Source of the DNA: Candidatus Cloacimonadota bacterium | GTDB lineage: Bacteria > Cloacimonadota > Cloacimonadia > Cloacimonadales > Cloacimonadaceae | Assembly: GCA_028695495.1 (NCBI GenBank) | Contig: JAQVIX010000014.1 | Location: 1-40,361 of the forward strand | Length of the DNA stretch: 40,361 bases | Direction of reading: 5' to 3' | In this document: piece after piece, positions 2,086-39,103 of the stretch | Numbering within the stretch: the first letter of the stretch is position 1 | Layout of the letters: the number at the start of each line of letters is the position of its first letter | Position numbers and translations under genes: made by a program | The notes under the pieces: model-generated | The model's database searches: none | Seen by the model: the letters and a program-made list of their open reading frames with translations, nothing else | Told to the model about the DNA's origin: nothing

Positions 2086-2346
2086 CCGAGCAGAGAGGCT
2101 GTCCAGTAATGCCAAAACCAAACACGATATCAGGCAAAACGAGAATGTAGGGGCGCAGGGCGCCAAAGCCCGCTTTTAACAAAGCGTGCGCTAGCGCACA
2201 CCGTAATAAATTGATATTGAGTACGTAATGATTAGCTGTTGCGTGTAAATTTCGGCTGGTTCAATGCCTTGAACCCCTACATATCAGGTGTGGACATTTC
2301 TTGATATTGTGTTGTTTGCGTATTTCTGGACATCTTCTCCGCTCGG
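2086..2346 (+). mobile_element. MITE-like element, copy 1 (most complete)
   Basis: A 261-bp non-coding element bounded by imperfect terminal inverted repeats of 25 bp (2086-2110 and 2322-2346, 21 of 25 positions matching; core GGCTGTCCAGTAAT). Inside are a nested inverted repeat (ATGTAGGGG near 2145 against CCCCTACAT near 2273) and small hairpins: GTGCGC-TA-GCGCAC near 2187 and GGTTCAA-TGCC-TTGAACC near 2260. Related copies lie at 23820-24006 (reverse), 35530-35617 (reverse, fragment) and 38743-38986 (forward). There is no transposase inside, so movement would need an enzyme from elsewhere. The terminal repeats, length and lack of coding capacity fit a miniature inverted-repeat element. I could not confirm a target-site duplication. 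Confidence 0.75.
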
Positions 2347-23819: not shown

Positions 23820-24006
23820 CCGAGGCTGTCCAGTAATACACAAACAATACAACAACAAGAAGTGTCCACACCTGAAATGTGGGGGTTCAATGCCTTGAAC
23901 CCGCCGATATCTACACGCAACAGCTAATCATTACAGACTCAGTATCAATTTATTACGGTGTGCGCTGCGCGCACGCTTTGTTAAAAGCGGGCATTGGCGC
24001 CCCTGA
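23820..24006 (-). repeat. MITE-like element, copy 2 (reverse orientation, one end lost)
   Basis: In reverse complement this matches the right three quarters of the 2086-2346 element. The terminal repeat CCGAGGCTGTCCAGTAAT at 23820-23837 is intact, followed by the GGTTCAA/TTGAACC hairpin and the GTGCGC-GCA-GCGCAC stem. The match ends near GGCGCC at about 24006, so the left end is missing. It lies between the convergent ends of the PHP gene and the GyrI-like gene; the rest of the gap (23727-23819) holds two weak hairpins and no gene. Confidence 0.75.
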
Positions 24007-35439: not shown

Positions 35440-35722
35440 AGTGTAAAATGCAAAATTAGCAAGGGTTTATCGCTGCGCTTCAAAACCCTTGGAAGATTCT
35501 GCTTCGCTTCGCTGCGCAATGAATGATGATTGAATCCGCCGAAATATACACGCAACAGCTAATCATTATGGATTGTGTGTCAATTTATTACGGTGTGCGC
35601 TTTGCGCCCCTACACTCCAGTTTCCTTAGATATCGGGCATGTTTTAGCATTTCTGGTTAGCTTCTGGCGCATAAAACCTACGCCAGTACATTCGCGACGA
35701 GCGCTGCGCAGCCATAAATAAC
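35440..35722. other. Gene-free DNA with a fragment of the MITE-like element
   Basis: This gap holds the hairpin after gltX (35461-35490), which may slow or end transcription, the element fragment at 35530-35617 and the region upstream of the ArsR operator. I see no gene. Confidence 0.5.
35530..35617 (-). repeat. MITE-like element, copy 3 (fragment)
   Basis: In reverse complement this matches the central part of the 2086-2346 element, including ACACGCAACAGCTAATCAT and ATTTATTACGGTGTGCGC. About 35 internal bases around the GCGCAC hairpin are missing, and both terminal repeats are lost. Confidence 0.65.
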
Positions 35723-38742: not shown

Positions 38743-38986
38743 TGGGCTGCCCCGAAATGCCAAAACCAAGCACGATATCAAGCAAAACGAGAATGTAGGG
38801 GCGCAAGGTTTTGCGCCCGCTTTTAATAAAGCGTGTGCGCAGCACACACCGTAATAAATTGATACATAATCCGTAATGCTTACCTGTTGCGTGTAATTCT
38901 CGGCGGGTTCAATGCATTGAACCCCTACATTTCAGGTGTGGACATTTCTTGATATTGTGTTGTTTGTATATTACTGGACAGCCTCG
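38743..38986 (+). mobile_element. MITE-like element, copy 4
   Basis: About 244 bp aligned end to end with the 2086-2346 element. Left terminus GGCTGCCCCGAAAT (degraded), right terminus ATTACTGGACAGCCTCG (intact). Internal features: GGGCGCAA/TTGCGCCC hairpin, GTGTGC-GCA-GCACAC stem, palindrome GGTTCAATGCATTGAACC, and ATGTAGGGG against CCCCTACAT. Confidence 0.75.
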
Positions 38987-39035: not shown

Positions 39036-39103
39036 CCATCCCTTCCCCTTCTTTTATGCGCAAGATCCGCGGATTTTGCGCATAAAAGAAGGGGAAGGGA
39101 TGG
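39036..39103. repeat. 68-bp near-perfect palindrome
   Basis: 33 of 34 base pairs match around the centre at 39069/39070, with one mismatched pair (39064/39075). The outer part is pyrimidine-rich on one strand (CCATCCCTTCCCCTTC) and the centre is ATCCGCGGAT. It ends 134 bases before the thrS ATG. With no loop it could form a cruciform. As RNA it would be a very stable hairpin but with no T run. Confidence 0.9.

Follow-up and report, generated by a model that had tools for sequence, protein, structure and literature searches.

Results

A palindromic repeat restricted to one genome

Does a short, multicopy repeat of a Candidatus Cloacimonadota bacterium carry the mark of selection on its folded form, and what kind of element would such a repeat be? 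The question arises at positions 38743-38985 of contig JAQVIX010000014.1, whose 40,361 nt constitute the window analysed here. A preliminary description had pointed to compensatory base changes in the hairpins of this repeat and proposed selection on the fold, as RNA or as a single-stranded transposition substrate.

The segment 38743-38985 (plus strand; copy 4 of the preliminary description) is one copy of a repeat of approximately 244 nt, with ends set by aligning 42 and 115 copies. Its own 5' end is worn, with TGGGCTGCCC in place of GAGGCTGTCC. Profile matches locate a second full copy in the window at 2095-2338 (plus strand) and two partial copies on the minus strand, one at 23821-24004, covering model positions 55-244, and one at 35529-35663, from which the central hairpin is deleted internally. 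All four lie between the main ORFs. The repeat has inverted termini of 10-19 nt, stays under about 300 nt and has no coding capacity. Two other features of the window are a 300-nt direct repeat (1-300 and 1115-1414, 95% identical), which overlaps an ORF with FlgD_ig and Por_Secre_tail domains, and a long near-perfect palindrome at 39037-39102, between the copy at 38743-38985 and the next ORF.

Across the genome, a draft of 155 contigs, a sequence-only profile built from 42 copies gives 152 matches. BLAST with the window copy as query finds at least 51 places, with 40 candidates scored. For the alignment, 115 near-full copies were taken from 167 non-overlapping matches; the 52 partial ones were left out of the counts, and the copy at C125:62298 lies outside the aligned set. 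As judged by BLAST, the repeat is restricted to its source genome: none of 96 related genomes, 11 of them from the same genus, contains a match. A profile search of 49 relatives returned two matches, both weak and partial, and the end pattern occurs in named genomes as 31 single, scattered stretches, which we take as chance.

Two inverted hairpins in an enclosing palindrome

The repeat consists of two GTAG-tagged hairpins, arranged as a REP dimer with GTAG on the outside, a structured spacer, and the enclosing inverted arms GAGGCTGTCC/GGACAGCCTC. Averaged over 42 copies, the fold of the whole element contains terminal arms, weaker subterminal arms and a GTAG/CTAC stem. The 5' terminal arm (38743-38760, consensus GAGGCTGTCCCGAAATGC) is paired in most copies with the 3' terminal arm (38968-38985, consensus GTATTACTGGACAGCCTC). 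Pairing between the subterminal arms at 38763-38777 and 38953-38965 is weak, with a mean pair probability of 0.25-0.72 in the 42 copies. The preliminary description had also noted ATGTAGGGG and CCCCTACAT around the hairpins, and both are present.

Inside the GTAG/CTAC stem lie hairpin D (38799-38818), the small stem E, the central hairpin F (38833-38847) and hairpin H (38905-38924). The first REP (38795-38818, plus strand) is a near-invariant GTAG tag at 38795-38798 followed by hairpin D, GGGCGCAAGGTTTTGCGCCC. The spacer contains stem E (GCTTT..AAAGC, 38819-38832), seen in the 42-copy fold and the 115-copy alignment, and hairpin F, GTGTGCGCAGCACAC, defined by the 115-copy alignment and including the covarying pair 38836/38844. 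The alignment places the second REP in inverted orientation at 38905-38928 (minus strand), with hairpin H, GGGTTCAATGCATTGAACCC, and a closing CTAC at 38925-38928 that reads GTAG on the minus strand. Each of D and H is therefore preceded by GTAG on its own strand, with the tags outside. The GTAG/CTAC positions (columns 54-57 and their partners) are paired in 112-115 of 115 copies, and the two inverted REPs form one folded unit. The fold is more stable than all of 200 dinucleotide shuffles (z -4.0 as DNA, -4.9 as plus-strand RNA, -4.0 as minus-strand RNA). The outer palindrome also exists without the GTAG dimer, its arms joined at GTAGGGG, at four exact places, one of them 107 nt long.

Covariation differs from stem to stem

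The central stem was described as changing on both arms between copies, and the sequences bear this out. It reads GTGCGC/GCGCAC in the copies at 2095 (plus strand) and 23821 (minus strand) and GTGTGC/GCACAC at 38833-38847, where the changed pair is 38836 (T)/38844 (A). In 109 copies this pair is C-G 79 times, T-A 13, T-G 10 and C-A 5 times (Fisher p=1.5e-6). Its correlation (r 0.51) is above the 95% point (0.39) and below the 99% point (0.59) for unpaired columns separated by the same distance. We also dealt the 3' halves of the stems at random among copies and compared arm stability in these chimeras with that in the real copies. Hairpin F becomes less stable when shuffled (z -2.4 as DNA, -4.2 as plus-strand RNA), as do stem E (DNA z -3.2) and hairpin H (z -6.6 to -9.3). 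The stability of hairpin D is unchanged (z 0.2, -0.3 and -0.1), and no overall covariation is seen in the terminal and outer inverted arms (z -1.2 to +2.1). The central stem thus covaries, the arms of the first REP hairpin assort freely, and the outer arms lack whole-arm covariation.

For hairpin D, the preliminary description had claimed self-complementary sequences that differ between copies. The GGGCGCAA/TTGCGCCC hairpin is found at 38799-38818 as described. In the copy at 2095, GGGCGCAGGGCGCCAAAGCCC does fold, but with the register shifted to GGCGC-AGG-GCGCC; the arms mismatch if the original register is kept. Two inner pairs of D are below expectation among the 115 copies (69 versus 72.3 and 63 versus 69.8) because arms of two kinds recombine, and copies with recombined arms still form shorter, register-shifted hairpins.

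The GGTTCAA/TTGAACC stem of hairpin H is present as well, at 38906-38923. In 45 of 115 copies the hairpin reads GGGTTCAAGGCATTGAACCC, and another 36 carry the exact reverse complement of that sequence, two-orientation alleles that look like loop inversion. We infer that the covariation score of H is driven mostly by this inversion. Compensatory change therefore holds for one pair of the central stem; it does not extend to hairpin D, and the GGTTCAA signal is mostly of another kind.

A structure-based count in 42 copies finds 95.2% of cells paired, compared with 94.6% after shuffling, and 18 double-changed cells, compared with 6.4. Under a tree-based null for the same 42 copies, all 29,646 column pairs stay at or above E 0.05, with the central pair in fifth place. 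In the 115 copies, Watson-Crick counts approximate the product of the column frequencies at nearly all pairs, so most of the pairing is explained by conservation alone. Many copies carry mismatched hairpin arms or a deleted central hairpin. An alignment of many genomic copies, proposed earlier as the check on covariation, thus bears it out for the central stem (115 copies), while the tree-based test singles out no pair, and the first REP hairpin and the outer arms vary without covarying.

Linkage between alignment columns drops to background past about 25 nt in the 115 copies, so the copies are mosaics. Together with the two exact reverse-complement forms of the GGTTCAA hairpin, a footprint of loop inversion, this fits a purely mutational origin of the compensatory changes and the hairpin variety. 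Template switching would homogenise arms and invert loops, and gene conversion would spread the products. In the cases described in PMC8604942 and PMC8794818, template switching produces loop inversions, and according to PMC8794818 it can yield compensatory changes even when no product is under selection. Central pairs changed on one side only (T-G 10, C-A 5) weigh against this origin, though recombination could make them too. We consider it plausible, if somewhat improbable overall, and the strand-specific pattern described below is what it does not predict.

The inner core tolerates G-U pairs on one strand

A change from a Watson-Crick to a G-U pair keeps the stem on the plus strand and breaks it on the minus strand, while the converse type has the opposite effect. 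The type that keeps the plus-strand stem is seen in at least two copies at 22 pairs of the inner helices, and the converse type at 7; in the outer helices the numbers are 13 and 16. Among paired inner columns the plus-strand G-U-keeping type is seen at 23/34, versus 11/34 for the converse type (p=0.007, or p=0.013 without two linked H columns), p-values that are optimistic because the columns are not fully independent. Unpaired inner columns give 19/35 versus 21/37 (p=1.0). On the plus strand of the inner core, G-U-type changes are tolerated twice as often as A-C-type changes.

This supports selection for folding of the plus strand in the inner core, whether as RNA or as single-stranded DNA. 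The bias is confined to paired inner columns, which template switching does not predict. This strand-specific G-U tolerance is the main support for selection on the folded form. The general idea of the preliminary description survives for the central stem and the inner core, and is not supported for the outer arms and the first REP hairpin.

The element and short hairpins share their sites

The flanks of the repeat are families of other repeats. We searched for sites with eight arm motifs anchored on both sides, complementarity not being required. There are 24 distinct sites with exactly 14 nt between the arms, 19 with the element, and none that is empty. The 14-nt occupants are perfect 5-bp hairpins in 22 of 24 cases; the other two pair at 4 of 5 positions. 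Four arm pairs were observed both with a 14-nt hairpin and with the element, which occurs in both orientations at arm pair Q/Z, one of the four, and at X/X2. Among these 14-mers, the two outer pairs (1 and 2) covary fully, with Watson-Crick pairing in 24/24 where about 10 are expected, and whole stems are switched, a further point in favour of a mutational origin of hairpin variety.

An element-free homologue of a flank was found for 72 of the 99 copies with both ends. In 60 of these 72, a 5-bp hairpin begins exactly at the junction, as it does at 0.8% of random positions. A junction peak of 39% over 630 stretches is an inflated figure because the central hairpin of the element itself makes up many of the stretches; safer figures come from the per-copy count and the two-arm test. 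The host repeat carrying the hairpin is also absent from 58 relatives, so these do not polarise the change from hairpin to element.

In seven cases a half element is attached to the 3' end of a full copy. The half starts right after the central hairpin in five (C58:31663, C129:12662, C74:30338, C110:11278, C57:12629) and in the 3' arm of hairpin D in two (C140:12726, C58:1149). Each joint falls at one of these two positions, next to an internal hairpin, and the upstream flanks differ. On C140 the insertion is into another element copy's own hairpin. The full copy at C50:17969 is preceded by a left half whose end coincides with the base of the central hairpin.

Could the short hairpins and the element be swapped between loci without any transposition? 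Homologous recombination or gene conversion between repeat arms common to many loci would fit flanking arms that are themselves repeats, composites of full and half elements joined at hairpin bases, and mosaic copies. It does not readily account for the insertion into another copy's hairpin on C140, or for the presence of the element in different arm pairs, to each of which some step must have delivered it. As a full account we find it rather doubtful.

A decayed DDE insertion sequence, its terminal arms cut by a transposase in trans, is unlikely. The size, the inverted termini of 10-19 nt, the high copy number and the lack of coding capacity are those of a classical MITE. Against this, target duplications of at least 4 nt are no more frequent than chance among 99 copies (a 2-nt duplication is in weak excess, 13 versus 5.8), and the hairpin at the site is replaced exactly by the insertion. 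As target duplication is a defining feature of MITEs, we do not file the repeat among them, MITE-like as it is. The genome contains only two DDE_Tnp_1 genes. The IS1634-type one was considered as the parent insertion sequence and rejected, since it has other ends (TAACCGAACTTTACCAT); the ends of the element itself match at 206 places in the genome, of which 100 were listed.

It is very improbable that the repeat is a structured RNA, either a gene or a regulator, that has multiplied in this genome: its stable multi-branched fold and plus-strand G-U bias would fit, but Rfam matched nothing except a tRNA, which rules out an Rfam RNA identity, none of the 96 genomes has a relative, many copies have mismatched arms or lack the central hairpin, and copies are located inside other repeats.

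Candidate enzymes

The genome has two Y1 genes. A truncated one scores as IS200-like (53.1 bits, cut-off 55), and the other scores 54.5 bits against the REP-transposase cut-off of 80 (NCBIfam REP_Tyr_transpos), which neither gene exceeds. The truncated gene, a Y1 fragment on contig C68, has element copies on either side. Around the second Y1 gene (contig C80, 190 aa) lie tandem GGTGGTTGTGGCATCTTGCCACAG hairpins, which belong to another palindromic repeat (L047, 3370-3430 and 4050-4160). In a genome of the same family (G018, L228), a Y1 gene is surrounded by three GTAGGAGCGACATCCTGTCGCTC GTAG hairpins in a REPtron-like arrangement.

To our knowledge, known Y1 elements do not require long terminal inverted arms, so a Y1 enzyme leaves the terminal arms of the repeat unexplained. 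We also know of no Y1 reaction in which a hairpin is removed exactly upon insertion.

Contig C25 carries an IS110-family transposase gene of 464 aa (L252, 360-1754). Next to it is a diverged version of the element's 5' half, whose first hairpin differs (L252, about 130-270). IS110 elements are among those described as targeting REPs (PMC1525189).

Discussion

We tentatively propose, at a probability of about 0.45, that the repeat is a non-autonomous, REPIN-like mobile palindrome that uses hairpins as target sites and is moved in trans as a folded single strand. Its spread would proceed through the folded plus strand. A hairpin-recognising enzyme acting in trans, most likely an HUH (Y1, REP-type) transposase, would cut at hairpin bases and join the element in at the position of a short hairpin. 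Folding would be under selection mainly in the inner GTAG dimer and the central stem. Recombination and loop inversion would shuffle the remaining parts among copies, which may be why compensatory changes are seen in some stems only.

The anatomy, the copy number, the restriction to one genome, the mosaic copies, the lack of target duplication beyond the weak 2-nt excess, the occupation of hairpin sites, the versions without the GTAG dimer and the plus-strand bias of the inner stems speak for the REPIN-like reading. So do the element copies on both sides of the C68 Y1 fragment and the GTAG hairpins around the Y1 gene of the same-family genome. Against it, conservation explains most of the pairing, the Y1 scores are under the REP-transposase cut-off, an IS110-family gene is also present, and ordinary recombination between the flanking repeats could swap the short hairpins and the element.

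It is also conceivable, though unlikely, that whole hairpins, and not sequences, are the mobile unit. In such a hairpin-exchange system, the never-empty sites where repeat arms end would hold either a 14-nt perfect hairpin or the 244-nt multi-hairpin element, and a structure-specific enzyme would swap the two precisely at the base of the hairpin.

Several known systems resemble the repeat in part. Head-head dimers of GTAG REPs are described inside longer palindromes in Anabaena variabilis and others (PMC3733652). The examples given there, such as GTAG-15 of A. variabilis, share GTAG outside two inverted hairpins, spacer stem-loops, a longer enclosing palindrome and more than 100 copies. In contrast to these, the palindrome of our repeat also exists without the dimer (the four exact places), and the repeat, at approximately 244 nt, has defined ends and replaces short hairpins. 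REPINs, as presented in PMC3116915, have in common with it an inverted REP pair that folds to a hairpin, a restricted distribution and compensatory changes on both sides of the hairpin. It differs in the absence of arm matching in the first hairpin and in its extra terminal inverted arms, and its cognate RAYT is only a candidate.

MITEs and the modular BOX and RUP repeats, in the account of PMC3049150, share size, inverted termini, a strong fold, species restriction and nested insertions, whereas in our repeat no target duplication was found and the site hairpin is replaced. Hairpin target sites are common to the REP-targeting insertion sequences of the IS110, IS3 and IS4 families. Those covered in PMC1525189 split the REP and both halves stay, while here no hairpin is left. 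The repeat also has the perfect stems and loop inversions of hairpin evolution by template switching, which PMC8794818 and PMC8604942 describe in rRNA genes and yeast genes, whereas the present case is a multicopy mobile repeat.

An exact exchange between hairpin and element, if true, would suggest that hairpin-recognising transposases have an outcome not yet described. It is widely held that compensatory changes prove an RNA to be functional. In this one genome, with more than 100 copies, the signal splits into a covarying stem, a freely recombining stem, an inversion and a strand-specific tolerance of G-U pairs. The repeat is thus a natural test bed for separating selection from template switching.
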